A DNA stretch of 48,620 nucleotides from positions 1 through 48,620 of the forward strand of contig CALWTQ010000023.1 in assembly GCA_944384505.1 (NCBI GenBank), given 5' to 3'. Positions 1-14,563 of the stretch are shown here, one piece after another. Every line of letters begins with the position of its first letter. Position 1 is the stretch's first letter. Origin of the DNA: an uncultured Mediterraneibacter sp. Lineage in GTDB: Bacteria; Bacillota; Clostridia; Lachnospirales; Lachnospiraceae. The notes under the pieces were generated by a model. The model worked only from the letters and a program-made list of their open reading frames with translations. It did no database searches and had not been told where the DNA came from. A program made the position numbers and the translations under genes.

Positions 1-316
1 ATGCGCAGGAAGCGGAGGGGATGGTTGAAGCGTAAGTTCTTGGAGAGGGGCGTGTGGGGACTGTGACTTTGGAGGAACCTGATGGAAGATCTTAGAAGTC
101 GGAGAGCTGTTGTTAAGCGGCGCGCAGGGATTGTCTGAGCACAGCGAGTTGCCCGGAGCGCCGCTTTGCACTTAAACAGCTTTTCGACTTCTTAGATCCT
201 TCCCAGATTCCGGAACGGAGCAGTACACACACGTCCCCTTTACAAGAACACGTTTCAAACATCCACTCCGCTTCCGGACGTATTTTGGAGGAAAGCGGTA
301 TTGTGCTAAATAGCTG
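1..316 (+). repeat. Structured hairpin element, copy 1 (left part outside window)
   Basis: This is the right-hand domain of a three-copy element; the left part lies beyond the window. It ends with CTAAATAGCTG at 306-316, the same terminal sequence as in the other copies. The domain folds on itself: GGAAGCGGAG near 9-18 faces CTCCGCTTCC near 270-279, and GGGGCGTGTG at 47-56 faces CACACGTCCCC at 228-238. The apical part holds the shared GCGGCGC...GCGCCGC hairpin around 117-163. The end lies about ten bases from the terminator of the neighbouring tRNA-Gly gene. No protein is supported. Confidence 0.85.
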
Positions 317-325
317 ATAGTAGCG

Positions 326-356
326 AAAAAGGGAGCTCCTTTTACAGGGCTCCCTC
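326..356 (-). terminator. Rho-independent terminator of tRNA-Gly
   Basis: On the minus strand, downstream of the tRNA, AGGGAGC and GCTCCCT form a stem with a short A-rich loop and are followed by a run of T. It separates the tRNA transcript from the hairpin element. Confidence 0.8.
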
Positions 357-374
357 ACAAAAGCAAAAAAATAG

Positions 375-445
375 AGCGGGTGATGGGAATCGAACCCACG
401 TATCCAGCTTGGAAGGCTGGTGTTCTACCATTGAACTACACCCGC
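375..445 (-). tRNA. tRNA-Gly (anticodon TCC)
   Basis: Read on the minus strand, a 71-base cloverleaf begins with GCGGGTG and ends with CACCCGC plus discriminator T. The D arm (TTCAATGG type), the anticodon loop CTTCCAA with anticodon TCC, and the T arm GGGTTCGATTCCC are all present. No 3' CCA is encoded. It has a weak promoter-like sequence upstream and its own terminator downstream. Confidence 0.95.
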
Positions 446-466
446 GTCATCTCTGACACGAATGTT

Positions 467-495
467 ATACTATCATACTTTTTTATAAAATGCAA
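467..495 (-). promoter_or_regulatory. Possible sigma-A promoter of tRNA-Gly
   Basis: On the minus strand TTGCAT (490-495) and TAGTAT (467-472) are 17 bases apart, and the -10 box is about 20 bases upstream of the tRNA 5' end. Both hexamers are imperfect, so this is a weak call based on position and spacing. Confidence 0.4.
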
Positions 496-654
496 GCACT
501 TTTTTATCTTTTCTTTTTCTCTGCATTCTGATATATTATTTTACATATTGTTATATTGGGTATTCTTTTATGGGGACAGTGGGTATATCATCTATACGTC
601 CCTGAGAATTGTACTGCCATATATGCATCAAATATCAGAACAGGAGAACAGATT

Positions 655-900
655 ATGAATTTTTCACAGATTGCCAGACTTCAGCAACTCAAAAAGCAGC
701 TGGAGCTTTTCCAGCAGAATCATCCGAAATTTCCGGCTTTTTTAGGAGCTGTATACCGTGAGGCATTGACAGAGGGTACCGTTATAGAGATCAGCGCTAC
801 TTCCCCGGACGGGAAGAATTATGTGACTAATCTGAAATTGAAGAAAGAAGACCTGGAATTTTTCAGGGCCCTGCAGGAGCTCAATGACTCCCGCAGGTAA
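655..900 (+). CDS. Small hypothetical protein (81 aa)
   Basis: I do not recognise this family. The start ATG at 655 is chosen over an upstream in-frame start because an AGGAGA sequence lies just ahead of it and the upstream extension is AT-rich spacer. The product is soluble and charged: an N-terminal amphipathic helix with leucines at regular spacing (QLKKQLELFQQNHPKF), a short central part with beta-strand character (GTVIEISATSPDG), then a Lys/Glu-rich helix. No membrane segment, signal peptide or cysteine motif is seen. It stands alone between tRNA-Gly and the convergent flavodiiron gene, with only 35 bases to the latter's stop codon. Confidence 0.7.
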   Translation: MNFSQIARLQQLKKQLELFQQNHPKFPAFLGAVYREALTEGTVIEISATSPDGKNYVTNLKLKKEDLEFFRALQELNDSRR

Positions 901-935
901 TTCCCTGTTTTTCAAAGATATCCTGGTCAGAATTC

Positions 936-3494
936 TTATCCAATCACTTCTTTGTACGAAGCATGTTTGTTAAGCGCCTCTGTCATCTTTGCCATCTCAG
1001 ACAGATCACCAATCAGAATCACGCCGGAAAGCCTGTTATTCAGGAAGAAATATTTCCGGTACTGTCCTTTGCCCATATCCCGCAACTCAACTGTTTTATA
1101 CAGAAGATCCGGGTTCTTTCCGCAGTCTCCGGCAGCAAAGAGCGCTGTGTTCATTCCGTGGAAAGTGAGGGCTGACGCCACAGGCTCATACTCCAGTTCT
1201 TCACCGGCCGCATTTGCCCCGGCTGTCTTACCCTGTTCAACCGCCTCCGGCCAGATTGCATAATTCACTCCTTCATATTCCGCACAGTCGCCGCATGCAT
1301 AGACATCGGCGATCCCTGTCTCCATCCGGCTGTTTACTTTTACAGCGCGCCCAGTCTCAAGACCGATCTTTTCTGCCAGCGCTGTGTTTGCGCGCACGCC
1401 TGCGGACACAACAACGATCTGCGCCGGAATCACTTCTCCGTCCGCCAGACGGACGCCGCTTACGTGCTTTTCTTCACCTGGCGCTTCACCGGCTGCTCCC
1501 TCGACCGCCGTCACTGAAACTCCGGTGCGGATCTGTACCCCGTTCTTTTCCACGATCCCCTTGAGGATCCCTGCGGAGCCAGAATCAAGCTGGCGTCCCA
1601 TCAGTTCCGGAGCCGCCTCCAGCACCTGCACTTTAAGACCTGCCTTCTTCAATTCCCACGCTGCTTCCAGACCAAGCACTCCTCCTCCGATCACAACAGC
1701 CTCGTCAGCCTTCTTCATAAGCCCTTCCAGCTTCTCCACGTCAGATAGCCTGCGGATCGCCACGACTTCCGGCAGAGCACTGCCCTCTACCGGCGGGATA
1801 AAGCACTCGCTTCCAAGCGCATAGATCAGACGTGTAAAATGCACTTTTTCTCCGCCTGTCAGTACTACTTCTTTCGCTTTCATATCAATGTCGGTGATCT
1901 CTTTCCCGAGCATCTGGTATACTTTATTCTCCTCGTACCAGTCCGGCCCCTCAATCGCAATCTGATCCGCGCTCAGTCCCGCCACAATAGACTTGGTCAG
2001 CATGGGACGGTTATACGCGGGATAGGATTCATTGGAGATCATCACAACGGCTCCGGTCTTATCCCTCTCACGGATGGCCTTGGCCGCATTGAATCCCGCC
2101 GCGCCGTTTCCGAGGATCACATAATATTCCTGTGTATTGTTGACAAATCCTGTTTCTTCTGCCTCCACCGGAATGAAGTTCTCTTTCCCAACGCCGCACA
2201 CCGGACAGATCTCCAGGGATGAATCAAAGATTTCCCCGCACACAAGACATTTCACAAGACTTCTTGTGCCCTTCTTCTTTGGTTTTACAGGCTCCTTGTT
2301 CTGGACGACACAGCCGAACTGATAGCCGTATTCATAAGCGCTGACCAGATCTGCCTCCGAAGGCTTAAACCGGACGCGGAACCCTTCTGACACTTTCATT
2401 TTCAGCTGTTTCAGCCGCTGTGTAATATTGGGTACGCCCTCTCCGCTCCATCCGTAGCTTCCAAACGCTCCGGCGAACTTTCCGCCATGAGTTGCCGGGA
2501 ACATTCCCAGTGTCAGATCCCAGATCGGCTTAAGCGCTTCTCCTACTATCGTTGGTGTGCCAAGAAGAATGCCGTCGGCAAAGAGAAGCTCCTCATTTAC
2601 TTTCGCAGCGTCCGCCTCGACCATATCATAAGAACGCACGTCAATATCGCCGCTGTCCTTCACGCCTTCTGCAATCTTCTCCGCCAGAGACTTTGTATAG
2701 CCATAAGCGCTCACATACGGGATGATAACCGTTTTTCTCGGATTTGGATTTACAACAGTTGACCACTCCCGGTACTGCTTCATTACTGATTTAATCCGGT
2801 CTCCTACGAGCACGGGTCCATGGCCGGTGCAGACCATGGAGATATCCATGTCCTCCACCCGGTCCAGAGCCTTTAACATAAAAGGTTTAAAGGGGCCGAT
2901 GATGCAGTCGTAATAATATTTCAGAGCTTTCTGGTAATCTTCCTCATTTTTAATCTCTGAAGAAAGCACTTCCGGCAGACAGTAGTGAGATCCGAAAGAA
3001 TCACATGTCACCAGAATCTGCTCTTCCTCGATAAAGGTATACATAGTGTCCGGCCAGTGCAGATTCGGAACAAACATAAAATGAAGCGTTCTGTTTCCGA
3101 TTGTCATCTTCTCATTATCCCGGGCCGGAATCCCTACGAAATCCCGGTTCACGATCTCCTTTAAAAAGCCAAGGGCACATCCGGTCGCAATAACCTTCAT
3201 CTGAGGGCTGTAGTCCAGAAGACGCTCCACACTGCCTGCATGATCCGGCTCCGTATGGCTTACCACCAGATAATCAATGCTGTGCACATCTATGACTTCT
3301 TTAAGTTTTTCCAGATAATCATCAAAAAACTTTGCCTTGGCCGTTTCAAAAAGAACTGTTTTGTTCCCCGTCTTCATCACATAGGAGTTATAGGTTGTCC
3401 CAAACTCCGTATACATAATGATGTCAAAAACTCTGAGCTTGTCGTCAATAATCCCCGTCCAGTAAAAATTTTCTCTCAGCTTGATACTCTTCAT
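936..3494 (-). CDS. Flavodiiron protein - rubredoxin - NADH:rubredoxin reductase fusion
   Basis: The enzyme reduces O2 to water (or NO to N2O) and protects anaerobic metabolism; fused electron carriers should let it draw electrons from NAD(P)H directly. Three modules are visible in 852 residues. (1) A beta-lactamase-like diiron domain, about 1-245, with a complete ligand set: His80, Glu82, Asp84 (SHTEPDH), His146, Asp165 and His225. (2) A flavodoxin domain, about 254-395. (3) A rubredoxin with Cys416, Cys419, Cys430 and Cys433, followed from about 457 by an FAD/NAD-binding reductase (GNGAAG at 462-467; second nucleotide motif GGGVLGLE; CGDCAE near the end). Such triple-module forms are a known but minority class of flavodiiron proteins. 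AGGAGG precedes the ATG. It is the last gene of the rpiB operon, 19 bases after nth. Confidence 0.95.
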   Translation of the reverse strand: MKSIKLRENFYWTGIIDDKLRVFDIIMYTEFGTTYNSYVMKTGNKTVLFETAKAKFFDDYLEKLKEVIDVHSIDYLVVSHTEPDHAGSVERLLDYSPQMKVIATGCALGFLKEIVNRDFVGIPARDNEKMTIGNRTLHFMFVPNLHWPDTMYTFIEEEQILVTCDSFGSHYCLPEVLSSEIKNEEDYQKALKYYYDCIIGPFKPFMLKALDRVEDMDISMVCTGHGPVLVGDRIKSVMKQYREWSTVVNPNPRKTVIIPYVSAYGYTKSLAEKIAEGVKDSGDIDVRSYDMVEADAAKVNEELLFADGILLGTPTIVGEALKPIWDLTLGMFPATHGGKFAGAFGSYGWSGEGVPNITQRLKQLKMKVSEGFRVRFKPSEADLVSAYEYGYQFGCVVQNKEPVKPKKKGTRSLVKCLVCGEIFDSSLEICPVCGVGKENFIPVEAEETGFVNNTQEYYVILGNGAAGFNAAKAIRERDKTGAVVMISNESYPAYNRPMLTKSIVAGLSADQIAIEGPDWYEENKVYQMLGKEITDIDMKAKEVVLTGGEKVHFTRLIYALGSECFIPPVEGSALPEVVAIRRLSDVEKLEGLMKKADEAVVIGGGVLGLEAAWELKKAGLKVQVLEAAPELMGRQLDSGSAGILKGIVEKNGVQIRTGVSVTAVEGAAGEAPGEEKHVSGVRLADGEVIPAQIVVVSAGVRANTALAEKIGLETGRAVKVNSRMETGIADVYACGDCAEYEGVNYAIWPEAVEQGKTAGANAAGEELEYEPVASALTFHGMNTALFAAGDCGKNPDLLYKTVELRDMGKGQYRKYFFLNNRLSGVILIGDLSEMAKMTEALNKHASYKEVIG

Positions 3495-3513
3495 TTTCTG
3501 CCTCCTCTTTTCT

Positions 3514-4152
3514 TTATTTTACACCGTTTTTCTTACAGATATCCGCCAGGCAGCATTTCTCGCAGTGGGGCTTTGTCCTTGCCGTACAGACGTCCCTGCC
3601 ATGGTACACCAGTCTGTGGCAGAGATCGCTGCCCTCCTCTGGCGGAATGATTTTCCACAGAGCCATTTCTACTTTTTTCGGCTCTTTGATCCCGTCTACC
3701 AGCCCGATCCGGTTCACAAGCCGGATGCAGTGCGTATCTGTCACAATCGCCGGCTTTCCGAACACGTCTCCCATGATCAGGTTCGCGCTCTTTCTTCCCA
3801 CGCCGGGGAGCTTTAAAAGAGCGTCAAAATCATCCGGCACCTTTCCTCCGTATTCGTCCCGCAGGATTTTCATACATGCGCTGATATCCCGCGCCTTGCT
3901 CCTCCCCAGGCCGCAGGGCCTTACGATCTCTTCTATGTCATTTACATCAGCCCCCGCAAGCGCCTCTACAGACGGATATTTCTCATACAGCCCTTCCACG
4001 ACCACGTTGACACGGGCATCCGTACATTGCGCAGCAAGCCGGACACTGACCAGCAGTTTCCAGGCCTGGTCATAATCCAGTGTGCATCCCGCGTCCGGAT
4101 ACTCTTTCTTCAAACGTTCAATCACTTCTAAAGCCCGCTGTTTTTTTGTCAT
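3514..4152 (-). CDS. nth: Endonuclease III (DNA glycosylase/AP lyase)
   Basis: This base-excision repair enzyme removes oxidised pyrimidines and nicks abasic sites. The helix-hairpin-helix is LPGVGRKSAN, with the catalytic Lys in GRKSA, and the catalytic Asp is in VTDTHCIRL. The C terminus carries the 4Fe-4S cluster motif C-x6-C-x2-C-x5-C (in CTARTKPHCEKCCLADIC). At 212 residues the length is normal. It is co-directional between the CmpB-like gene (22 bases upstream) and the flavodiiron gene (19 bases downstream), so an oxidative-damage repair enzyme and an O2-reducing enzyme share a transcript. Confidence 0.97.
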   Translation of the reverse strand: MTKKQRALEVIERLKKEYPDAGCTLDYDQAWKLLVSVRLAAQCTDARVNVVVEGLYEKYPSVEALAGADVNDIEEIVRPCGLGRSKARDISACMKILRDEYGGKVPDDFDALLKLPGVGRKSANLIMGDVFGKPAIVTDTHCIRLVNRIGLVDGIKEPKKVEMALWKIIPPEEGSDLCHRLVYHGRDVCTARTKPHCEKCCLADICKKNGVK

Positions 4153-4174
4153 CTGTACGTTTCCTTTCTAACCT

Positions 4175-5176
4175 TTACTGATTGTCCATACTTCGGCGGA
4201 TCTCCTCCAGCGCCTCCTTAAACTTTCGGGATGCAGCCGTAGGATTTCTTCTCAGCTGCCTCGCAGCCCGCAGATAACTCCGGTCCGTGCGCTCCCCCAG
4301 TTTCTGGAGTTCAGAGAGAACATTCTGCCTGATAGACTCCAGGTCCCTCCTCCGCCGTTCTCTTCCTGTCAGTCCATCAGCCTTCTCCGGTAGTTCCTCC
4401 CGAAGCAGTTTCTCCGCCCGTTCTGCGAGAAGTGTAAGCTGATGGATATATTCCTCCCGGCGGATATGGATCTGCCCGAGATATGCTTTTTTCCGTGAGC
4501 TTCTTTCCTTTGCCTTCTCTCCTGCCCGCTTCCTGTACTCCTCCGCAAACGCGGCAGCGCGCTGACGGTATTCCTCTGCCAGTTCTTCAGAAGCAGATTT
4601 CAGTTTCTCCTGCATCTGGCGCATCTGTTCCCTGCTCTCTTCCAGCTGTACGAGGATCCTTTTCATATCCATCGCCTCGTTGAAGGACTGAGTCAGATCC
4701 ACAGCCGATGTCACAGAGAGGAGCAATGCTATCCACTCCTCCGCCAGTGCCGGAATCCGGAGCACCAGATCCTCCACAGGTACATGCACCACCCGCACAA
4801 GCAGGACGGAAAAACACCCCCAGCAGAGCGAAGATGACAGGCAAATATACCCGTTCAGGTTGAATTTCTGGGTACTATAGTCCCAATATCTCACATGAAA
4901 AAGTTTTTCCATCATCGCGCCTGTAATATACTCAAGAACTGTCGCCCCTGTCATACCCATTAAGAAAATCAATACCGGGTTTTCCCTGACTCCGATCGTG
5001 CTGACCAAAACCACAATCGCGCCCGAACCATAGATCGGAAGCATCGGCCCGTGCATGAATCCCCGGTTCACCCATCGCCGTTCTTTTACAGATACATAGC
5101 AGCTCTCCCAGATCCATCCGGCAAAACTATACAAAAAGAAAAACAAAATCCATTGTGACAAATGGTACGAATGCAT
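4175..5176 (-). CDS. CmpB-like (putative ABC-transporter type IV) membrane protein with coiled coil
   Basis: The N-terminal ~150 residues contain several hydrophobic segments and signatures of the family called putative ABC transporter type IV / CmpB: YSFAGWIWES, RGFMHGPMLPIYGSGA and WDYSTQKFNLNGYICL. The family name is historical; no ATPase is nearby and transport is not shown. The remaining ~180 residues are a highly charged Glu/Arg/Lys-rich helix, probably a cytoplasmic coiled coil. The start codon overlaps the rpiB stop (TAATG), which indicates translational coupling. The role is unknown. Confidence 0.8.
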   Translation of the reverse strand: MHSYHLSQWILFFFLYSFAGWIWESCYVSVKERRWVNRGFMHGPMLPIYGSGAIVVLVSTIGVRENPVLIFLMGMTGATVLEYITGAMMEKLFHVRYWDYSTQKFNLNGYICLSSSLCWGCFSVLLVRVVHVPVEDLVLRIPALAEEWIALLLSVTSAVDLTQSFNEAMDMKRILVQLEESREQMRQMQEKLKSASEELAEEYRQRAAAFAEEYRKRAGEKAKERSSRKKAYLGQIHIRREEYIHQLTLLAERAEKLLREELPEKADGLTGRERRRRDLESIRQNVLSELQKLGERTDRSYLRAARQLRRNPTAASRKFKEALEEIRRSMDNQ

Positions 5177-5622
5177 TACTGCTCCTTCTCTTCAATTGCC
5201 ATAATCATATCGACTCTTCTCTGATGGCGTCCCCCCTCGAACTCGGTATTCAGCCATGTCTCAACAATCATTTTCGCCAGCTCCGCACCCACAACACGCG
5301 CGCCGAACGCAAGAATATTGCAGTTATTATGCGCCCTGGCCATCCTTGCCGTATACGGTTCACTGCAGACTGCCGCACGGATCCCCTTAACTTTATTTGC
5401 CGCCAGAGATATCCCCAGGCCTGTACCGCAGATCAAAATCCCCTGCTCCACCTCGCCGGATGCCACCGCGCGTCCCACAATCTCTCCATATGCGGGATAG
5501 TCACAGCTCTCTGTTGAATTCGTGCCATAATCCACTACTTCATGGCCCTTCTCTTTTAGAAACTCAACAATTTCCGCTTTCAGCTCCAGCGCCGAATGGT
5601 CGTTTCCAATTCCGATTTTCAT
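5176..5622 (-). CDS. rpiB: Ribose-5-phosphate isomerase B
   Basis: It interconverts ribose 5-phosphate and ribulose 5-phosphate in the pentose phosphate pathway. The 148-residue length is typical. Family signatures are the N-terminal GNDHSALELK, the CGTGLGIS phosphate-binding loop with its cysteine, and the ARAHNNCNILAFGARV stretch. Some RpiB homologues act on allose or galactose phosphates, and nothing here excludes that. It is the first gene of a four-gene leftward operon with its own promoter at 5666-5694. Confidence 0.95.
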   Translation of the reverse strand: MKIGIGNDHSALELKAEIVEFLKEKGHEVVDYGTNSTESCDYPAYGEIVGRAVASGEVEQGILICGTGLGISLAANKVKGIRAAVCSEPYTARMARAHNNCNILAFGARVVGAELAKMIVETWLNTEFEGGRHQRRVDMIMAIEEKEQ

Positions 5623-5665
5623 ATCTCATTATTTCCTTTCTGCATATTTATCGTACACTGCCTCT

Positions 5666-5694
5666 ATCATAGCAAATTCATAATGTGAACGCAA
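5666..5694 (-). promoter_or_regulatory. Sigma-A promoter of the rpiB operon
   Basis: On the minus strand TTGCGT (5689-5694) and TATGAT (5666-5671) are separated by 17 bases, about 40 bases before the rpiB start. The -35 box is weak and the -10 box good. The hairpin element begins only 25 bases upstream. Confidence 0.6.
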
Positions 5695-5719
5695 CCAGCG
5701 GAAAGTCCAAAATCCAATT

Positions 5720-6320
5720 CAGCTATAAAGCTATAAAGTTCACTAACGTCCTTTGGCAAAACGTCCGAAAACAACTCCTTTGCCAAAACGTATTCTGCGG
5801 GGATGGAGGAGGGCGACGGGCGCCTCCATCCCCGCAGAATTTTTCTCGAAATGGGGCTGTTTTCTGGGCTTTTCAATCCGGAAGCCAGTGAATATATAGC
5901 TGCCAAAAAAAGCAGGCGCGGCCGGAAGACTTTCGTAATAGAAAGCCTCCAAGCCGCGCCAACTTCGCGTTTCAGCCTATTTAGGCAATGACACTTCCGA
6001 CAGGAAATGCGCAGGAAGCGGAGCGGATGTTGGAAGCGTGTTCTTGGAGAGAGGGGGTGTGGGGACTGTGACTTTGGAGGAATCTGATGGAAGGTCTTAG
6101 AAGTCGGAGAGCTGTTGTTAAGCGGCGCGCAGGGATTGTCTGAGCAGAGCGAGTTGCCCGGAGCGCCGCTTGTCCTTAAACAGCTCTTCGACTTCTTAGA
6201 TCCTTCCCGGATTCCGGAACGGAACAGTGCACACACGCCCCCTCTCCAAGAACACGTTTCAAACATCCGCTCCGCTTCCGGACGTATTTTGAAGGAAAGC
6301 GGTATTTGACTAAATAGCTG
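5720..6320 (+). repeat. Structured hairpin element, copy 2 (complete, ~601 bp)
   Basis: The element begins CAGCTATAAAG and ends CTAAATAGCTG, which are inverted forms of each other. Left domain: the 5' end pairs with AGTGAATATATAGCTG at 5887-5902 and carries a perfect 18-bp stem, 5792-5809 with 5823-5840. Middle hairpin: GGCGCGGC (5915-5922) with GCCGCGCC (5953-5960). Right domain: a perfect 18-bp stem (6014-6031 with 6262-6279), then a perfect 15-bp stem (6037-6051 with 6242-6256), then AGCGGCGC (6121-6128) with GCGCCGCT (6163-6170). It fills the gap between rpiB and the DnaJ-like gene, ending ten bases from the latter's stop codon. No target-site duplication is obvious. Confidence 0.9.
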
Positions 6321-6330
6321 CGCCTCCTTA

Positions 6331-7419
6331 TTATGCAGTCTGTGCCCTCCCGGCGCACAGTGCCTCATATTCTTTCAGTTTTTTCTGAGCTGCCGGGCTC
6401 AGCCTCTGCGGCACATCAATCTGCACAGTTACGTACTGGTCTCCGTGCACGGACGCATTTTTCATCGAAACAATTCCTTTTCCTTTCAGGCGGATTTTGG
6501 TTCCGGACTGTGTCCCTTCGTGTATCTTGCACAGGACGTCCCCGTACAGAGTATGCACGACTGCCTCGCCGCCAAACACTGCTGTGGTATAAGGAATGCG
6601 GACGGTGGTGTAAACATCTGTTCCTTTTCTTTCGTACCCGGGCTTTTCACCTACTGTAACTTTCAGCAGAAGATCTCCTGCTCCGCCGCCATTTACCCCC
6701 GGCATTCCCTTTCCTTTCAGCCGGACAGACTGGCCTGTATCAATTCCCGCGGGAATGTGCACCTGCAGGGTCTGTACTCCGCTTCCTGCACCGGACGGAT
6801 CCTGAAGCCTGATCACCTTGTCGCAGCCAAATGCAGCCTCATCAAATGATACTGTCACATCTGCCCGCACATCTGATCCTTTTTCCTGATAGTTTCCTCC
6901 TCTGCCTCCAAAGCCTCCGAAACTGTCAAATCCGCCAAAGCCTCCGCTGTATGTCTGTCTGCCGGAGCTTCCGGATTTTCCCGAAGCACTGCCGCTCCGT
7001 CCATGATGGAAGATATCTCCGAACATATCCTGGAACATGTCGTCCATATTGCCGCCTTCAAAATGATACTCCTGATAGCCGTCCGGTCCGCTGTAAGAAC
7101 GCCAGAAGCCCTGGCTTCCCGCTCCGCCGTAAGACTGTCCGGCGCCGCTGCCGAAGCCGCCGTAAGCCCCGTATCCGCCCGCGCCGCTCTCATCGAACGC
7201 GGCATGGCCAAACTGGTCATAAAGTTTCTTTTTCTCTGTATCGCTAAGTACATTATATGCTTCTGTAACTTCCTTAAAATTCTTCTCCGCCTGCGCGTCC
7301 CCCGGATTCGTATCCGGATGGTACTTCTTCGCGAGCCTGCGGTATGCTTTCTTTATCTGCGTGGCATCTGCGTCTTTGCCGACGCCAAGCACGTCATAAT
7401 AATCTCTTTTAACTGCCAT
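6331..7419 (-). CDS. DnaJ-type co-chaperone lacking the zinc-finger domain (type II / CbpA-like)
   Basis: It stimulates DnaK ATPase and delivers substrates. An N-terminal J domain (about residues 1-70) contains the invariant HPD in [11 protein letters not shown] very long Gly/Ser/Phe-rich linker follows (about 75-180), and then the C-terminal substrate-binding domain ([39 protein letters not shown]). The four CxxCxGxG zinc repeats of canonical DnaJ are absent. The start is placed at 7419 (MAVKRDYYD) because AGGAGGG lies just upstream; an in-frame start 33 bases earlier has no ribosome-binding site. It is monocistronic and not beside hrcA/grpE/dnaK here, so probably a second, housekeeping co-chaperone. 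Confidence 0.92.
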
Positions 7420-7513
7420 TATAATCACCCTCCTGCCATGAATCCCAGTCAATCCACTCGATCTATTTTAATCCGTATACGAACATAATATGTCATCATA
7501 TTGTTCTATCTGT

Positions 7514-7542
7514 AATATAACAACTATTTTCATCAAAGTCAA
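7514..7542 (-). promoter_or_regulatory. Sigma-A promoter of the DnaJ-like gene
   Basis: On the minus strand TTGACT (7537-7542) and TATATT (7514-7519) are spaced by 17 bases, giving a leader of about 90 bases. No CIRCE inverted repeat is seen in the leader, so HrcA control is not supported. Confidence 0.65.
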
Positions 7543-7614
7543 GTCCCGCCCCGGAAAGTTATAATTTTGCCTTAACAGTTCTATGAACTGAGCGCCCTTC
7601 TATCCTGATTTTCA

Positions 7615-7643
7615 TAGTCAAATCGCACATGATAAGTTATAAT
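7615..7643 (+). promoter_or_regulatory. Sigma-A promoter of the O-acetyltransferase gene
   Basis: A perfect TATAAT (7638-7643) is preceded after 17 bases by TAGTCA (7615-7620), which matches the -35 box at four of six positions. It lies about 70 bases ahead of the start codon. Confidence 0.55.
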
Positions 7644-7710
7644 AATTCAGAATATAAGCATACCCCGGCCATATCAGCCGGTATCTGCGGTTGTAAAAGG
7701 AGGAGTCTCG

Positions 7711-8340
7711 ATGACCGAATATGAAAAGCTGCACAGCGAAAAAATTTATTTCCCCGGAGATCCGGAAATCCTGAAGGAGCAGGCTGCCTGCCAGGAACGT
7801 CTCTACGACTATAACATGACCCGTCCTTCCGAAGGCGGGAAAAGATTTCAGCTGCTAAAAGAAATGTTTGCAGAATTAGGTGAGGGATGTTATATCGAGC
7901 CGCCTCTGCACTCGAATTTCGGCGGACATCATGTCCACTTCGGCAAAGGGATCTATGCGAACTACAACCTGACTCTGGTTGACGATACCCATATCTATGT
8001 GGGCGACTATACTATGATCGGCCCCAATGTAATCATCGCGACAGCCGGACACCCGATTCTGCCCGAACTGCGTGAGAAAGGGTATCAGTATAATATCCCC
8101 GTCCGGATCGGAAGAAACTGCTGGATCGGTGCGGGAGCCGTTCTCCTGCCCGGCGTAACCGTAGGGGACAATACCGTCATCGGCGCCGGAAGCATTGTGA
8201 CAAAGGATATCCCCGCCAATGTCGTTGCAGTCGGAAACCCGTGCCGGGTGCTCAGAGAGATCGGAGAGCACGACAGGAAATATTATTATAGAGACAGAGC
8301 AATAGAGCCTGAGATATTGCTGCAGGCTCAAAAAGACTGA
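7711..8340 (+). CDS. Sugar O-acetyltransferase (maltose/galactoside acetyltransferase family)
   Basis: It transfers acetyl from acetyl-CoA to a sugar hydroxyl, in the cytoplasm. The 209-residue protein has the N-terminal Mac domain (EKIYFPGDPEILKEQ), then left-handed beta-helix hexapeptide repeats (IGRNCWIGAGAVLLPGVTVG, DNTVIGAGSIVTKDIPANVV). The catalytic His is in IATAGHPI, and the C-terminal GNPCRVLREI is typical. LacA and Maa cannot be told apart by eye and no sugar operon adjoins, so no symbol is given. The ribosome-binding site is strong (AAAGGAGGAG). It converges on tex across a two-layer terminator. Confidence 0.93.
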   Translation: MTEYEKLHSEKIYFPGDPEILKEQAACQERLYDYNMTRPSEGGKRFQLLKEMFAELGEGCYIEPPLHSNFGGHHVHFGKGIYANYNLTLVDDTHIYVGDYTMIGPNVIIATAGHPILPELREKGYQYNIPVRIGRNCWIGAGAVLLPGVTVGDNTVIGAGSIVTKDIPANVVAVGNPCRVLREIGEHDRKYYYRDRAIEPEILLQAQKD

Positions 8341-8349
8341 AATTTATAA

Positions 8350-8432
8350 CAGTTCAGCCACAGGACTGTCCGTTAGAAAGAATCATGCCCGCATGATTTT
8401 TCAATCGGAGGATTAATCCTATGGCTGAACTG
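8350..8432. terminator. Bidirectional nested terminator between acetyltransferase gene and tex
   Basis: An inner hairpin, AATCATGC/GCATGATT followed by T-residues (8381-8402), is enclosed by a perfect 11-bp inverted repeat, CAGTTCAGCCA (8350-8360) and TGGCTGAACTG (8422-8432). The spacer between the convergent genes is almost wholly palindromic. Confidence 0.75.
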
Positions 8433-8438
8433 CTGCTT

Positions 8439-10595
8439 TTACTGAATCCCCCGCATTGTAAGCTGGATTCTCTTCTTCTTCAGGTCTACGCTCATGACTT
8501 TCACATCCACAATATCCCCCACGCTCACTGCCTCCAGCGGGTGCTTAATATACCGGTCCGTGATCTGGGAAATATGGACCAGTCCGTCCTGATGCACGCC
8601 AATATCCACAAACACGCCGAAGTCGATCACATTTCTCACGGTTCCTTTAAGAATCATTCCCTCTTTTAAGTCCTTCATCTCCAGAACATCTGTGCGCAGG
8701 ATCGGCTTAGGCATCTCATCCCTGGGGTCTCTTCCCGGTTTCTCCAGCTCTCCCACGATGTCTCTTAAAGTGATCTCTCCGGTTCCAAGTTCTTCTGAAA
8801 GCTTTTTATAATCCCTGATCGTAAGGGAAAGGCCGGTCAGGTTATGAGCCGCAACGTCTTCAGGAGTATACCCCTGCTTTTTCAACAGCTTTTCGGCAGC
8901 TTCGTAAGACTCAGGATGCACCCCGGTAGAATCCAGCGGATTTTTCCCTCCCTGGATCCTCATAAATCCCGCGCACTGCTCGAATGCCTTCGGCCCAAGC
9001 TTCGGCACCTTCAGAAGCTCTCTCCTGTCTGTGAAACGTCCGTTTTCCTCCCGATACGTAACGATATTTTTCGCAATCGTACTGCTGATCCCTGATATAT
9101 ACGACAGAAGCGGCGCTGAAGCCGTATTCAGGTCCACTCCCACCTTATTCACACAGTCTTCTACCACTCCGGTCAGGGATTCTCCCAGCTTCTTCTGGTT
9201 CATGTCGTGCTGGTACTGGCCAACACCGATAGATTTCGGATCGATCTTCACCAGCTCCGCCAGCGGATCCTGGAGACGCCTGGCAATGGACGCCGCGCTC
9301 CTCTGTCCCACATCAAACTTCGGAAATTCCTCGCTTGCCAGCTTGCTGGCAGAGTAGACAGACGCTCCGGCTTCATTTACAATCACATACTGTACCTTCT
9401 GATCCGGAATCTCTTTTAAAAGTTCAACAATAAACTGCTCAGACTCCCTGGAGGCCGTTCCGTTCCCCAGAGAGATCAGGGAGATGTTGTACTTTGGAAT
9501 AATCTTTTTCAACAAGTCTTTACTTGCCTTGATCTTCTGCGGGGTTGTGGGCGCTGTCGGGTAGATCACTGTAGTGCCGATTACCTTTCCTGTAGGATCC
9601 ACCACCGCCAGCTTACACCCGGTCCGGAACGCGGGGTCCCAGCCAAGCACCACCTTTCCCGCAATCGGCGGCTGCATGAGCAGCTGGTGCAGGTTCTTTC
9701 CAAACACTTCTATCGCTCCGTCTTCCGCCTTCTCCGTCAGTTCACTGCGGATCTCCCGCTCTATGGCCGGCTGGATCAGACGGTGATAGCTGTCTTCCAC
9801 TGTTTCTTTTAATACCGGATCTGTGAAAGGATTCTCCCCCCGGATCGTCTTCCGCTCCAGATAGCGGAGAATCTCATCCTCCGGCGCCTCGATCTTCACA
9901 GTCAGAAACTTCTCCTTCTCTCCCCGGTTCAGCGCGAGGATTCTGTGTCCCGCCAGCTTCTGTATCGGTTCCTCGAACTCATAATACATCTCATAGACCG
10001 ATTCCGCTTTCGGATCCTTCGCAGAAGAGATCAGAAGCCCTTTTCTCATGGTAGTCTTCCGGATCCATGTCCGGTAATCAGCATTGTCAGAAACCGACTC
10101 CGCAATGATGTCCTTCGCCCCCTGTATAGCTTCCTCCGCGGTCCTGACCTCTTTTTCCTCTGAAATATATTCAGCCGCAGTCTCCTCAAGCGGCGCCTCT
10201 GCCTTCTGCAGCATGATATATGCCGCCAGCGGCTCCAGCCCCTTCTCTTTGGCGATCGTCGCTCTTGTCCGGCGTTTCGGGCGGTAAGGGCGATACAGAT
10301 CCTCCACAGTTACCAGGGTCTCTGCTGCCATGATCTGATTTTTCAGCTCTTCTGTCAGTTTTCCCTGTTCCTCGATACTGGAGAGCACCTGTTCCTTCTT
10401 CTCCTCCAGATTCCTGAGATATGTCAGACGCTCATGCAGCTTTCTCAGCTGCTCATCGTTCAGAGAACCGGTTACTTCTTTCCTATAACGGGAAATAAAC
10501 GGAATCGTATTCCCCTCATCGATCAGTTTTACCGCCGCGTCAATCTGCCAGCGCTTCACATCAAGTTCTTCAGTTAGTTTCTGATTAATATCCAT
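8439..10595 (-). CDS. tex: Tex-family RNA-binding transcription accessory protein
   Basis: Tex proteins are nucleic-acid-binding homologues of eukaryotic Spt6, thought to act in transcription. The 718 residues show the expected order: an N-terminal helical domain (ISRYRKEVTGSLND), a YqgF/RNase H-like domain around 320-450 (GWDPAFRTGCKLAVVD), a helix-hairpin-helix region (TASAPLLSYISGIS, LLKVPKLGPKAFEQCAGF) and a C-terminal S1 domain (LKGTVRNVIDFGVFVDIG) ending at the stop. The length is normal and the gene complete. It is a single-gene transcript that converges on the acetyltransferase gene. Confidence 0.96.
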   Translation of the reverse strand: MDINQKLTEELDVKRWQIDAAVKLIDEGNTIPFISRYRKEVTGSLNDEQLRKLHERLTYLRNLEEKKEQVLSSIEEQGKLTEELKNQIMAAETLVTVEDLYRPYRPKRRTRATIAKEKGLEPLAAYIMLQKAEAPLEETAAEYISEEKEVRTAEEAIQGAKDIIAESVSDNADYRTWIRKTTMRKGLLISSAKDPKAESVYEMYYEFEEPIQKLAGHRILALNRGEKEKFLTVKIEAPEDEILRYLERKTIRGENPFTDPVLKETVEDSYHRLIQPAIEREIRSELTEKAEDGAIEVFGKNLHQLLMQPPIAGKVVLGWDPAFRTGCKLAVVDPTGKVIGTTVIYPTAPTTPQKIKASKDLLKKIIPKYNISLISLGNGTASRESEQFIVELLKEIPDQKVQYVIVNEAGASVYSASKLASEEFPKFDVGQRSAASIARRLQDPLAELVKIDPKSIGVGQYQHDMNQKKLGESLTGVVEDCVNKVGVDLNTASAPLLSYISGISSTIAKNIVTYREENGRFTDRRELLKVPKLGPKAFEQCAGFMRIQGGKNPLDSTGVHPESYEAAEKLLKKQGYTPEDVAAHNLTGLSLTIRDYKKLSEELGTGEITLRDIVGELEKPGRDPRDEMPKPILRTDVLEMKDLKEGMILKGTVRNVIDFGVFVDIGVHQDGLVHISQITDRYIKHPLEAVSVGDIVDVKVMSVDLKKKRIQLTMRGIQ

Positions 10596-10904
10596 GGTGT
10601 ATATTTCCTCTCATTTATTCTTGCAGTATAAATTTCACTGCCTCTTTTTCCCATTTATTTTCCTACCTATCTTACCACGTTCTTTCTGAGGAAAAAAGTA
10701 TATTTCGCGGTCTGATTCGCGACGGCTGTGAAATAGTAACGCTTCATATAAAAATCGGCCTGAAAATAACAGTTCAGCGCTTGACATCTTACCGCAGCCT
10801 GTTCAAAATATCAATAGCGCTGTCGAAACCTCATTCTAGCGCGAATGAAAATGACCGTCCCGCAGCAGATGTCTTTTGCGGGAATAAAATCACAGGAGCA
10901 TCCA
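10596..10904. other. Divergent intergenic region between tex and the pseudouridine synthase
   Basis: These 309 bases hold no convincing gene. A possible rightward promoter is TTGACA at 10781-10786 with a poor CAAAAT -10 box at 10804-10809. A small hairpin CCCGCA...TGCGGG lies at 10859-10882, just before the AGGAG of the pseudouridine synthase gene, and could affect its translation. A short in-frame extension (from 10845) overlaps this hairpin and is not favoured as the start. Confidence 0.5.
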
Positions 10905-11798
10905 ATGAACCGAACGATTACTTATCAGATCACTCCCACCGACGAAGGCCTTCGTATCGAGCAGTACCTGCGCCGGCGCGGCTACTCACATCAGAACCTC
11001 ACGCAGCTGAAAAAGATGCCGGAAAGCATTCTTCTGAACAGGAACTGGAGCTACATGCGGACTCCGCTCAAAAGCGGAGATATTCTCATTGTTCATATTC
11101 AGGAGAGGGACTCCTCCCCTAATATTCCGCCGGTTAAGCTTCCTCTGAATATCATATACGAAGACGAAGATATTCTCGTGGTCAATAAGCCCGCCGGAAT
11201 GCCGGTTCACCCTTCCCTTAACAATTACAGGAACTCCCTCGCGAATGCACTGATGTACTATTATGAGCAGCAGGGGAAACCGTTCGTCTTCCGCTGTACC
11301 AACCGGCTGGACCGTGACACCTCCGGCCTGACTGTAGTCGCGAAACATATGGTAAGTTCAGCGATCCTGTCCGCCATGACCGCCCGGCATGAGATCACCC
11401 GGGAATATCTGGCTGTTGTCCGCGGCTCCATTATTCCTCCGTCAGGGACCATCGACGTGCCCATCGGAAGGGCGGGAACATCCCTGATCGAAAGGAAAGC
11501 AGACTTTGAACACGGCGAACGAGCGGTTACTCATTATCAGGTGAGGGAAGAGAAAAACGGTTGCGCCCTTGTCTCCCTCATTTTGGAGACAGGGCGCACC
11601 CACCAGATCCGTGTGCATATGAAGCACATCGGTCATCCTCTGCTCGGAGATTATCTGTATAATCCGGATATGGAACTAATCCGCCGTCAGGCCCTCCACT
11701 CTCACCGGCTGAAATTTGCCCATCCTGTAACCGGCGCCCGGATGGAATTTACCGCCGGACTTCCAGAAGATTTTTCCGTCTTTGAATTTTCCGTTTAG
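10905..11798 (+). CDS. RluA-family pseudouridine synthase
   Basis: It isomerises uridine to pseudouridine in rRNA or tRNA. The N-terminal part resembles an S4-like RNA-binding segment (GLRIEQYLRRRGYSHQNLTQ). The catalytic motif NRLDRDTSGL contains the invariant Asp, and TGRTHQIRVHMKHIGHPLLGD is the usual C-terminal signature. The start is set at ATG 10905 because AGGAG stands eight bases upstream; this gives 297 residues, normal for the family. The exact target (RluC-, RluD- or TruC-like) cannot be decided from sequence. Confidence 0.93.
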   Translation: MNRTITYQITPTDEGLRIEQYLRRRGYSHQNLTQLKKMPESILLNRNWSYMRTPLKSGDILIVHIQERDSSPNIPPVKLPLNIIYEDEDILVVNKPAGMPVHPSLNNYRNSLANALMYYYEQQGKPFVFRCTNRLDRDTSGLTVVAKHMVSSAILSAMTARHEITREYLAVVRGSIIPPSGTIDVPIGRAGTSLIERKADFEHGERAVTHYQVREEKNGCALVSLILETGRTHQIRVHMKHIGHPLLGDYLYNPDMELIRRQALHSHRLKFAHPVTGARMEFTAGLPEDFSVFEFSV

Positions 11799-11835
11799 CC
11801 GCCCTCCTGACCTTCCGGCGGCTGAAAACGGCTTT
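11797..11835 (+). terminator. Terminator after the pseudouridine synthase gene
   Basis: AGCCGCC (11797-11803) and GGCGGCT (11817-11823) form a GC-rich stem that starts inside the stop codon. The T-stretch that follows is interrupted, so efficiency is uncertain. Confidence 0.5.
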
Positions 11836-11875
11836 TGCCTTATTTATATGTGCCGGGCAGAACGCCGAATTAATG

Positions 11876-12568
11876 CTACAGAGAATTCTTTTCCCGCATA
11901 CCCTGTGCCTGCAGCGAAAAAACATCGCGGCAGAGTATGTCTCTTTTCCTTTCATCCATATCAATAAACTTACATCCGTACCTGTAGCAGACACGCCCCT
12001 CTTCATCTGTGTCCGGCCTGTCTTTGCGGACGATCTCAGCCCTGAAAGAATGTGAGAATCCGTCTTTGACAATCTGAAATCCTGAAAAAATCAGGATCTC
12101 GCCTACATTATAGTCTTCTGTCAGTTGAATGCCCGCCCCTGTCAGACTGATATTGAACAGCCGGCACCAGACACCGGCCGGATTGCTTTCACGCTTTATC
12201 TGTCCTTCTATATCAACAGACAGCCGGAAATTCATCCGGTCTTCCGTAAAATAATCAATTTTTTCGGGCATTATGTCCCAGTAAGTTCTTTCACAGTGAA
12301 CCGCGGTACCATACAGCAGAACTATTTCCTGCTGTGAAGAGGATAATTTTATCTGGATCTTGATCCGGACGCCGGCGCCGGTTCCCGCTGGCGTCGTCTC
12401 TCCCCTGCGAAGATCAATCCTCAGAGTGTCGGAATCCGGATCGTACTGCCTTGTGATGCCAGGAAACAAAAATATATTGTCCAAAGTCATAACCTCACAC
12501 CTAAGATCCGAATGCTCTGAGAAAAAAGTCCGTACATCCTTTACAAATTCGTCTGTTTTACTGGTCAT
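11876..12568 (-). CDS. PilZ-domain c-di-GMP-binding protein (YcgR-like architecture)
   Basis: PilZ domains bind cyclic di-GMP and change motility, adhesion or polysaccharide output. Both binding motifs are intact: RxxxR in EDRMNFRLSV and (D/N)xSxxG in FNISLTGAGIQL, followed by beta strands ending near GCKFIDMDERKRDIL. The ~100-residue N-terminal region (VMTLDNIFLFPGITRQYDPD) is beta-rich like the YcgR N domain. The start is set at ATG 12568; a GTG 12 bases upstream would be embedded in the ribosome-binding site GGGAGTG. It is 230 residues and has no flagellar or cyclase gene beside it. Whether the cell swims cannot be judged here. Confidence 0.85.
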   Translation of the reverse strand: MTSKTDEFVKDVRTFFSEHSDLRCEVMTLDNIFLFPGITRQYDPDSDTLRIDLRRGETTPAGTGAGVRIKIQIKLSSSQQEIVLLYGTAVHCERTYWDIMPEKIDYFTEDRMNFRLSVDIEGQIKRESNPAGVWCRLFNISLTGAGIQLTEDYNVGEILIFSGFQIVKDGFSHSFRAEIVRKDRPDTDEEGRVCYRYGCKFIDMDERKRDILCRDVFSLQAQGMREKNSL

Positions 12569-12735
12569 TTTGAATATCACTCCCTCTCAATTATATAGAT
12601 TGACGTTCGGGCGGTCCGCCGGACTTGCCCCTGCAAACCTGCCATAATAAATAAATGCAGTTCATATTATATATCGTCAAAAACAGAACAAAATTTTAGG
12701 ATTCCGGTGATATAGCGCATCCCATGTGATGGTTA

Positions 12736-13495
12736 CAGCTATAAAGTTCACTAACTTCCGGATGCGAAACGTCCGAAAACAGAGTCGATTCTCAAAGCGT
12801 ATTCTGCGGGGATGGAGGACGGCTCAGGGCTTCGCTCCAGGGGATAAGGGAAACTAAGAAGTTCCGGCTGCGGATTAGATGCAAGGACAGGAGGGGAGCA
12901 ACTCACTTCGCTCAGACAATCTCCCCTCCTGCCCTAACATCCGCAGCCGCAATTTCAAGTTTCCCTAATCCCCTTCCGAAGGCGCCCGTCGCCATCCTCC
13001 ATCCCCGCAGAATTTTTCTCGAAATGGGGCTGTTTTCTGGGCTTTTCAAGCCGGGAGTCAGTGAATATATAGCTGCTACGAGAAGCAGGCGCGGCCGGAA
13101 GACTTTCGTAATGGAAAGCCTACAAGCCGCGCCGGTTGTGCGTTTCAGCCTGTTTAGGGCAGTAACACTTCCGTCTGGGAATGCGCAGGAAGCGGAGCGG
13201 ACGGTTTGAGTAAACTTTCTGGGGAAGGGGACAGCCGGGAGATGTGACTTTGGAGGAATCCGCTGAAAATCTTGAGGGCGGAGAGATGTTGTTAAGCGGC
13301 GCGCAGGGATTGTCTGAGCGAAGCGAGTTGCCCGGAGCGCCGATTTGCCCTTAAACATCTCTTCGGCCTGTTAGATTTTCCGGATTCTGGAACGGAACAT
13401 CGCACGGCTGTCCCCTTTCACAGAATACGTATCGCAAACCATCCGCTCCGCTTCCGGACGTGAGTCACAGGAAATATTAGTGCGCTAAATAGCTG
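12736..13495 (+). repeat. Structured hairpin element, copy 3 (complete, ~760 bp, with extra arm)
   Basis: It has the same ends as copy 2: CAGCTATAAAG at the left (12736) and CTAAATAGCTG at the right (13485-13495). The left basal stem is 12736-12752 with AGTGAATATATAGCTG at 13060-13075, and the 18-bp stem is 12801-12818 with 12996-13013. In the right domain GGGGACAGCCG (13227-13237) pairs exactly with CGGCTGTCCCC (13405-13415). The equivalent stem in copy 1 reads CGTGTG/CACACG, so pairing is kept while sequence differs. The loop that is 13 bases in copy 2 is 177 bases here and holds another hairpin. The element ends 27 bases before the -35 box of the tRNA-Arg promoter. Confidence 0.9.
12819..12995. 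repeat. Extra nested hairpin arm inside element copy 3
   Basis: It replaces a 13-base loop of copy 2. Its stems are 12840-12855 with 12958-12973 (15 of 16 paired), GGCTGCGGAT (12866-12875) with ATCCGCAGCC (12939-12948), and AGGAGGGGAG (12889-12898) with CTCCCCTCCT (12921-12930). Its apical loop (CAACTCACTTCGCTCAGACA) is the inverted counterpart of the apical loop of the element's right domain (around 13308-13332), so the arm looks like a duplicated, inverted hairpin of the same family. Confidence 0.75.
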
Positions 13496-13522
13496 AACTG
13501 CCAATATTTTTTGAAAAATTTC

Positions 13523-13551
13523 TTGACAGATCTTTGTTATAAGTGTATAAT
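13523..13551 (+). promoter_or_regulatory. Consensus sigma-A promoter of tRNA-Arg
   Basis: TTGACA (13523-13528) and TATAAT (13546-13551) are both perfect and separated by exactly 17 bases. The tRNA begins 35 bases after the -10 box. This is as expected for a strong constitutive stable-RNA promoter. Confidence 0.9.
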
Positions 13552-13585
13552 TATTTTTGCTGTTGGACGAGACAGTTTTTATTAT

Positions 13586-13659
13586 GTGCGATTAGCTCAG
13601 CTGGATAGAGCGTCTGGCTACGGACCAGAAGGTCGGGAGTTCGAATCTTCTATCGCACG
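13586..13659 (+). tRNA. tRNA-Arg (anticodon ACG)
   Basis: This 74-base cloverleaf has acceptor GTGCGAT/ATCGCAC with discriminator G, D arm TAGCTCAGCTGGATAGAG, anticodon stem TCTGG/CCAGA with loop CTACGGA (anticodon ACG, expected to be edited to ICG) and T arm TCGGGAGTTCGAATCTTCT. No CCA is encoded. Confidence 0.96.
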
Positions 13660-13667
13660 TAGAGAAA

Positions 13668-13702
13668 AGAGATGCCGAATAAGTATTCAGCATCTCTTTT
13701 TG
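13668..13702. terminator. Bidirectional terminator between tRNA-Arg and the DUF6282 operon
   Basis: AGAGATGC and GCATCTCT form a stem extended by AATA/TATT-type pairs, with T-runs on both strands. It serves the rightward tRNA and the leftward four-gene operon. Confidence 0.85.
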
Positions 13703-13723
13703 TTTTCAGCAGATCCGGTTTCT

Positions 13724-14563
13724 TTATGAAATTCCCAGTAGTTTTGCCGGATTCAGCTTTGTCATCAGATCAATCTCCTCTTTTGTAATCCCATGTTCCA
13801 GCATATAATTGATATACTCTGTAAATCCTTCACTCCATCCGCAGTTTCCGGGCTGTCCCAAATCGGTAGCCATTATTGAGGTATCTGCACCTAATGCTTT
13901 TATATCAGCGATGTTCCGGTCAAAATGCTTTTCAAACACTTTGCTTTCAGGCAGGCGGCTTCCCCCATAATTTCTCTCCAGATAAACGCCATATGAAAGC
14001 AGTTCCCGCTGCGCGTCCAGAGGCATGGAGATCCGATATAAAGTGGGATGATTTACCAGAATCCGGTTTACCCCCAGTTCTTTTGCCCGCTTTACGACAA
14101 TGATCTGCTCCTGCCACGCCAGATGTCCGGTCGCCATTACCATATCATTCTCGGCAATTACTGAAAGCACCTCATCCATGGCCGGCACCGTACGTCCGTC
14201 CTTTGTACATTCCACTCCGCCGGAACGCCCTGCCCCTTTACGTTCATGCACTGAATCCAGGGTTGGCAGCCAGACGATCTTTCCTCCAAGCGCCGCCACA
14301 GCACGGACTGCGTCAGGATTGAGCCCGCCAGTCTCCTTATTCAGGGCAATTCCACCCCAGATCTTCAGTCCCGGGAATTTTTTCTGTACCAGCTGAGCGC
14401 GCGAGGCAGTTTCAAAAATATGTGTCTTTATCACAATTCCTCCCGCGCCGCAGGCGGCCGCTTCTTCTGCCAGCTCATACTCGTCGAATTTACGCGTTTT
14501 ATATGCCTCCGGCCCTGTATGCACATGGATATCGATGACTCCCTTTAAAACTTCCTTATTCAC
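13724..14563 (-). CDS. DUF6282-type protein, amidohydrolase/PHP-like
   Basis: The function is not established. The protein starts with GVIDIHVHTGPEAY, an HxH metal-binding motif typical of TIM-barrel metal-dependent hydrolases. Other candidate ligands are IKTHIFET, ATGHLAW, VNHPTL and ATDLGQPGNCGW, in an order like that of amidohydrolases, so a hydrolase or lyase acting on a carboxylic acid or lactone is plausible. The start is GTG at 14563 with AGGGAGG seven bases upstream; the nearby ATG is out of frame and followed at once by TGA. It is 279 residues and the last gene of the LysR-linked operon. Confidence 0.8.
   Translation of the reverse strand: MNKEVLKGVIDIHVHTGPEAYKTRKFDEYELAEEAAACGAGGIVIKTHIFETASRAQLVQKKFPGLKIWGGIALNKETGGLNPDAVRAVAALGGKIVWLPTLDSVHERKGAGRSGGVECTKDGRTVPAMDEVLSVIAENDMVMATGHLAWQEQIIVVKRAKELGVNRILVNHPTLYRISMPLDAQRELLSYGVYLERNYGGSRLPESKVFEKHFDRNIADIKALGADTSIMATDLGQPGNCGWSEGFTEYINYMLEHGITKEEIDLMTKLNPAKLLGIS

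Follow-up and report, generated by a model that had tools for sequence, protein, structure and literature searches.

The window analysed here, a stretch of 48,620 nucleotides from an uncultured Mediterraneibacter sp. (genome G000, hereafter the host), carries three copies of a long palindromic element. As an earlier sequence-only reading had described, they lie at 1-316, 5720-6320 and 12736-13495, all on the plus strand, and the motifs reported as common to them match exactly. Copy 1 (1-316) is partial, being cut by the contig start: it comprises most of the right-hand hairpin (H3) and the right terminal repeat (right terminus 306-316), the remainder falling off the contig, and it aligns by blastn with consensus positions 447-763 at 80% identity. 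Copy 2 (5720-6320) is complete with a shortened left-hand hairpin (H1), and its inner part (5729-6286) consists of two consensus pieces at 85-90% identity (blastn). Its H1 (5720-5902, plus strand), delimited by sequence, fold and motif positions, is a shortened palindrome closed by the inner motif AGTGAATATATAGCTG at 5887-5902. The conserved small hairpin H2 (GGCGCGGC...GCCGCGCC) follows at 5915-5960 on the plus strand, within a match to the H2 covariance model at 5909-5988, and the right palindrome H3 occupies 5973-6320 (plus strand), with the apex TTGTCTGAGC.GAGCGAGTTG and the right terminal repeat closing at 6320. The left terminal repeat of this copy (5720-5735) has 8 bp added to it, an extra partial repeat stacked outside. 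Copy 3 (12736-13495) is complete and of full length (760 bp), giving a single match to consensus positions 1-763 at 92%. It is made up of a full-length palindromic H1 (12736-13075, plus strand; self reverse-complement match, 70%) with its apex motif on the minus strand, H2 (13088-13133, plus strand; covariance model match 13082-13161), and H3 (13146-13495, plus strand; self reverse-complement match 13188-13497, 70%) with its apex motif on the plus strand.

That the element is built of long hairpins was confirmed. Inverted repeats within 5720-6320 measure 18 nt at 100% identity (5792-5809/5823-5840), 56 nt at 89% (the arms of H3, 6014-6069/6224-6279), 22 nt at 91% and 15 nt at 87%. The fold energies of copy 2 (-316.6 kcal/mol, z -13.7) and copy 3 (-397.4 kcal/mol, z -18.0) were each reached by none of 20 shuffled sequences. 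Two genes, which we take from their sequences to be RpiB-like and DnaJ-like, flank copy 2; the DnaJ-like frame (6331-7452, minus strand) has its stop codon 10 bp from the right end of the element. Downstream of copy 3, and outside it, lies the promoter (13523-13551, plus strand; 12/12 sigma-70 consensus positions) of a tRNA-Arg gene at 13585-13660, and copy 1 is followed by a tRNA-Gly gene at 374-445. The earlier claim that all ends lie within about 30 bases of a gene boundary or promoter thus stands for the right ends of copy 2 (10 bp from the stop at 6331) and copy 3 (27 bp from the -35 box at 13523). It fails for the left ends of copies 2 and 3, 97 and 155 bp from the nearest gene start, and for the right end of copy 1, 57 bp from the tRNA-Gly gene.

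The host genome holds far more than three copies. The inner motif occurs at 138 sites (at most one mismatch, both strands; reversed control, 0) and the 20-bp terminal repeat at 358 sites (at most two mismatches; control, 0), a true copy number being uncertain because many of the listed sites lie at contig ends. With 71 inner motifs in forward and 67 in reverse orientation, the uniform orientation noted in the window does not extend to the genome. Stretches cut around these sites yielded 59 complete copies of 422-771 bp, 40 of them 740-779 bp long. The 20-bp inverted repeats at their ends have a sharp outer boundary, beyond which the sequence has background composition, and across 137 left and 156 right matches conservation of the first seven end bases is 96-100%; since the terminal patterns tolerated two mismatches, conservation within the repeat is partly by construction, and the drop outside it is not.

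Consensus and structure were derived from the 40 of the 59 complete copies that measure 735-785 bp. The body consists of two palindromes of about 340 bp, H1 (1-342) and H3 (~412-763), on either side of the small hairpin H2 (~343-408), with a fold of -415 kcal/mol. These full copies are 75-94% identical in pairs (median 83%), and with the closest pair among them only 94% identical, no recent jump was seen. Modules occur as H1 alone, H1-H2 and H1-H2-H3, and in some copies H1 or H3 has lost sequence around the apex. The element measures about 340 to 770 bases; in the smallest solo unit (L154) H1 is reduced to about 180 bp, a full H1 measuring about 340 bp. In one case (locus L202, positions 1389-4156, host contig C43) two H1-H2 units stand inverted around a cargo of about 1.9 kb with an 83-aa ORF, presumably XRE-like, and a 442-aa ORF, a pair of half-elements that is possibly a composite transposon. 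Extra partial terminal repeats of about 16 bp were also seen outside the left end (L027, L028, L032, L117, L165) or the right end (L018, L037) of some copies.

A coding element was rejected, as no ORF is conserved among copies: the longest ATG-initiated ORF per copy ranges from 28 to 160 aa at varying positions, and only 12 of 979 alignment gap runs are divisible by three. ORFs of 233 and 148 aa that overlap the window copies are for this reason taken as chance.

The structure itself is maintained. Across the 40 full copies, pairing is kept in 93.0% of 11265 cells, against 89.8% in shuffles. Changes on both sides of a pair affect 67 pairs and 423 cells, compared with 50.1 and 161.6 in shuffles (0 of 500 as high), while structures slid by one to three columns give 35-65 double-change cells. 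The covariation test proposed in the earlier reading therefore finds pairing changes compensated well beyond shuffles, in copies that are related and apparently recombining, so that double changes are not independent events; further pair types are about as numerous as in shuffles (194 compared with 189.5; 68 of 500 as high). Wobble variants, counted at consensus Watson-Crick pairs that the folds of both strands share, are distributed unequally: distinct G-U/A-C variants number 17/35 in H1, 7/6 in H2 and 36/18 in H3, and by cells 34/127, 10/50 and 152/61. Tolerated G-U wobble thus falls on opposite strands in the two large hairpins, minus in H1 and plus in H3 (Fisher p 0.0009 for the difference, about 0.02 for each hairpin alone, all drawn from related copies), with an asymmetry in H2 that is absent by distinct variants and present by cells. 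A C-to-T mutation bias on the favoured strand could give part of this pattern. When reverse-complemented, H1 aligns with H3 at the apex (GGnATTGTCTGAGC-GAAGCGAGTTGnCC) with a score of 41, mirrored shuffles reaching at most 28; in direct orientation the score is 19, no match. From the wobble asymmetry and the inverted apex match we infer that H1 and H3 are probably the same kind of hairpin in inverted orientation, the 3' end of the relevant strand being in each case the end of the element.

These observations bear on the proposal of a structured RNA spread by mobility, for which the maintained structure speaks and the opposite strands favoured by H1 and H3, unexpected for one RNA, do not. A family of large structured RNA genes is very improbable: the strongly compensated pairing and the conservation of H2 across species would suit it, but copy number and frequent truncation, the opposite favoured strands, the lack of any promoter-like site common to the window copies and the lack of an Rfam match all argue against it. 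A search of the window against Rfam at the gathering threshold gave only two tRNAs, and six loci searched with E up to 1 gave one chance-level, unrelated match outside the element; the Rfam check proposed in the earlier reading thus gave no match of the element to a described family. Pattern searches of plasmid, phage and IMG/VR sequences gave no match, the exact inner motif is missing from 60 relatives (36 of the same genus), the element is not among at least 70 contig stretches matched by a 16-mer (best match 19-24 bp), and no description of it was found in the open-licence papers searched.

Gene context was assessed for 55 of the 59 complete copies, the other four being short of flank or neighbouring ORF, with gene ends taken from script ORF calls of at least 80 codons; of 10 flanking ORFs searched against Pfam, nine matched at E 0.001, eight of them above the curated cut-off. 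Both neighbours are transcribed leftwards at 20 copies and rightwards at 17, and they diverge at nine and converge at nine. Placement relative to these genes is far from uniform. The 55 gene 3' ends that face an element lie at a median distance of 5 bp, compared with 100 bp for the gene starts that do so. The distance to the 3' end is 0-10 bp in 33 cases and more than 10 bp in 13, and it is negative in the remaining nine, where the frame finishes within the terminal repeat of the element. Uniform insertion into element-free gaps within the stretches examined predicts 0-10 bp in 11% (tandem) to 14% (convergent) of cases, and the excess is significant (binomial p below 1e-14). Both gaps are at most 8 bp in five of the nine convergent copies; the nine copies between divergent genes have no adjoining gene 3' end.

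Comparison of filled and empty orthologous sites, as the earlier reading had proposed, identified relatives free of the element at two loci. The RpiB-like and DnaJ-like genes flanking copy 2 lie about 115-230 bp apart in the eight relatives in which both could be aligned, and about 700 bp apart here. The second locus, a convergent PRPP synthetase/DUF1653 pair (Pfam), was compared in 30 genomes, the host and 29 of 57 other members of the genus. The pair is kept in 24 of the 29 relatives, with stops 7-158 bp apart in 23 of the 24, and the gap measures 770 bp in the host; in G457 it is filled by a 355-bp palindrome with other ends, and in four of the five relatives without the convergent pair (G030, G014, G473, G474) a similar palindrome directly follows the PRPP synthetase stop. 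Relatives with almost no spacer occur at this site, so absence could reflect loss as well as non-insertion. In G010 and G463 (L296, L297) the two stops are separated by 18 bp resembling one terminal repeat of the second family described below, perhaps the scar of a lost copy.

No target duplication was detected. At lengths of 1-15 bp, the flanks of the 59 complete copies match no better than shuffled pairs: exact matches at lengths 1-4 number 16, 5, 1 and 1 (expected 17.8, 7.0, 0.9 and 0.2), none is longer, and the largest z (2.6) falls at 6 bp, without an exact match. A duplication hidden in the terminal repeat (a CAGCTG target with AGCT duplicated) was considered and rejected, as left ends in G476 (TGGCTGTTTAG) lack such a repeat. 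A palindromic target was likewise discarded: stop codons lying about 5 bp away would produce the faint logo of the flanks (A at -7, A/G at -6). IS200/IS605 derivatives have a fixed short target sequence adjoining the left end; here no single base rises above 0.54 at any position of the flanks.

The sequence-only reading had favoured a MITE-like non-autonomous element. More than 100 dispersed copies, sharp inverted ends, element-free relatives, deletion derivatives and the pair of half-copies around a cargo agree with this; the absence of a target duplication in the 59 complete copies and of any transposase gene with these ends in the stretches read does not. The mobile-element reading is thus supported in outline, and its conventional MITE form is weakened. 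A deletion derivative of an insertion sequence, its autonomous copy lost, unassembled or not found here, would explain the inverted ends, the missing coding capacity, the high copy number and the half-copies that surround other genes in L202, and the many copies at contig ends mean that an autonomous copy may be unassembled. Such a derivative is nevertheless rather unlikely, as no duplication of any length from 1 to 15 occurs, the element terminates in the feet of two distinct palindromes, and the termini vary between species while H2 and the apex are retained.

No mobiliser was found in the stretches read around the copies. A candidate autonomous element with a Y1 transposase (L115, 1809-2480) was rejected, its ORF belonging to an insertion, which we take to be IS200-like, nested between H2 and H3. 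At L135 (~1980-2450) a truncated Y1 insertion, presumably also IS200-like, is nested inside H3. The host does encode a RAYT-like protein (L346, 1465-2232, host contig C50; 255 aa, with HFH and YIHMNP motifs), next to ORFs that are presumably glycyl-tRNA-synthetase-like and aminopeptidase-like. Movement by this Y1 protein, in the manner of a REP system, would be in keeping with a palindromic, extragenic repeat at gene 3' ends without target duplication, but we regard it as improbable. The gene carries its own small GGGACGTAGT...ACTACGTCCC hairpins on its flanks rather than the element, an arrangement shared by several members of the genus. Moreover, long-frame RAYT-like matches are listed for four of the nine genomes that carry the element (G000, G026, G029, G020) and for many element-free genomes; none is listed for G476, G012, G021, G017 and G005, some of which are incomplete assemblies.

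In overall character the element nonetheless resembles REPs and BIMEs or REPINs: it is palindromic and extragenic, has more than 100 copies, forms mosaics of units in opposite orientation and often lies near gene 3' ends. In E. coli a sizeable share of REPs is found at 1-20 nt from the end of an ORF, and REPs located less than 16 nt from a stop codon reduce translation (PMC12306157). REPs measure 20-40 bp (PMC3733652), so that on this figure the units found here, at 340-770 bp, are more than 10 times larger. No GTAG-type foot, as in REPs, was seen at the element ends, and the RAYT gene of REP/BIME systems is flanked by the repeat, unlike the host gene with its GGGACGTAGT hairpins. In unit size and RAYT linkage the element thus falls outside the REP/BIME class by the tests made. 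CGTC-tagged REPs of other phyla are described as palindromic repeats with stems of 8-9 bp and no dedicated transposase (PMC3733652). They parallel the missing enzyme here and differ in their short stems. The small bacterial RUP, Correia/NEMIS, ERIC, CIR and YPAL repeats, which are MITE-like, are non-coding and about 100-200 bp long, mostly with terminal inverted repeats and target duplications, and give long-stem transcripts (PMC2229807). Both this size range and the target duplications set them apart from the present element, in which, of the classical MITE features, terminal inverted repeats and lack of coding capacity are found and target-site duplication is not. Pneumococcal BOX elements are structured and combine modules in varied ways; compared by description, they are alike in being modular and structured and differ in that their modules are far smaller. 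Group IIC introns insert at gene 3' ends (terminators) without target duplication; they possess a ribozyme core and in most cases encode a protein. The element is like them in its 3'-end insertion without duplication, and neither the window nor the six loci gave an Rfam intron match.

A covariance model of H2 matched nine of 58 genomes of the genus (G000, G026, G005, G476, G029, G012, G020, G021, G017) and gave no match in the other 49; among the other 396 genomes of the family sample it weakly matched two (E ~4e-5). Matches were scored at no more than 80 sites in the host; in the family sample 11 candidates were scored per genome (two for the self-palindrome scan), so weak relatives may be missed there. 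As H2 matches on both strands, some of the matches in relatives represent one site counted two times, and G020 and G021 each carry a single copy. Between species the termini and long hairpins vary, while H2 and the apex are retained. In L249, L258 and L272 (G029), in L259, L267 and L273 (G476) and, by eye, in L252 (G020), the position of H3 is occupied by another right-hand hairpin (GTCACGAAGGCCCGTAGCAGAGCG...), about 200 bp long. This hairpin is unrelated to H3 and well conserved among these three genomes.

The palindromes first met at the PRPP site define a second family (B, the element described so far being A), with ends (T)RAAATCTGNATTTGTC. Family B matches eight genomes of the genus (G457, G473, G030, G474, G014, G463, G010, G004) and weakly matches G000 and G460, so that the carriers of the two families do not overlap, save for the weak B matches of G000. 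At the PRPP site itself, A occurs in the host and B-like palindromes in five relatives. Family B is placed in the same manner as A: in a first set, restricted to repeats with a gene end at -40 to +200 bp and with five of 18 rows from the PRPP site, 17 of the 18 ends are found at -1 to +3 bp from the stop codon. A second set, which overlaps the first in part, contains 23 ends that face a gene 3' end, and 16 of these fall within the same range. Among the seven exceptions, four look like internal look-alikes of the repeat; at the two lying 17 and 23 bp away, TAA or TA|A in another frame immediately precedes the end; and one (L393, 803 bp) is a good repeat without an adjoining gene end. Seven further ends of this set faced gene starts and two had no ORF. 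At some convergent gene pairs the close placement of family B holds on both sides. A hot spot common to both families was rejected: of 38 genes flanking B and 87 flanking A, only the already chosen PRPP site overlapped, other overlaps being matches of 24-44% identity. Another genus (L170, L174; G174) also has palindromes about 200 bp long in which the apex motif is the same and the stems differ. The apex and short stem stretches are common to A, B and the G174 hairpin, above mirrored shuffles, which suggests that the three may form a wider superfamily.

What is most surprising about the system is that two families whose ends differ are both placed at stop codons. Such placement could in principle reflect domestication, the palindromes being giant terminators or mRNA-stabilising hairpins that are selected at gene ends and homogenised within each genome. 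Apart from the tight placement, two observations favour this: in G020 an ordinary terminator-like hairpin follows, by eye, the DnaJ-like stop where copy 2 ends in the host, and by crude criteria ordinary terminators occur at only 10 of 232 element-free gene ends. However, the consensus has no T-run, hence no U-rich tract, after H1 or H3, terminator-like sites in 1-14000 number 15 against 13.4 by chance, the wobble favours strands not used by messages reading in, and 49 of the 58 genomes of the genus gave no match to the H2 model. We therefore consider domestication improbable. A weak terminator-like site does recur on the minus strand between H1 and H2 of copies 2 and 3.

The reading we prefer, with a probability of roughly 0.6, is that these non-coding palindromes form a family of non-autonomous mobile elements, much larger counterparts of REPs and BIMEs, seen so far in part of one genus. 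Under this reading an enzyme supplied in trans would recognise each end of the element in single-stranded form, presumably folded into a hairpin on whichever strand has its 3' terminus at the element end, and the same enzyme would insert the element without target duplication. The sites chosen, or the copies surviving, would be those at gene 3' ends, where the palindrome would become a very large hairpin just past the stop and may affect message stability or termination. The apex motif GATTGTCTGAGCGAAGCGAGTTG, common to H1 and H3 (inverted) and to the other families, would be the likeliest recognition feature. A stronger version, that the elements represent a new class of mobile DNA aiming its insertion at stop codons and leaving a giant palindrome exactly where the reading frame ends, in several species whose elements differ in their termini, is tentative and on balance doubtful.

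The placement at stop codons, the H1-H2-H3 modules and the second family are additions to what the first reading had described. By our estimate, family A would make up something like 2-3% of the host genome (138-179 copies of about 0.7 kb in 3.95 Mb), a sizeable share for an element without a match in the catalogues searched. It is found at many assembly breaks, and it places a giant hairpin immediately behind the stop codons of many genes. Having two families with different ends in one genus provides natural material for separating the recognition features (apex, H2, termini) from the rest. If insertion is aimed at stop codons, it would need a signal from translation or from the 3' end of the message, or else a reaction replacing everything between two stop codons; we know of neither in bacterial transposons. 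How a mobile element reaches stop codons without target duplication is a testable question, and if targeting rather than selection causes the placement, these palindromes would represent a new mode of insertion-site choice.
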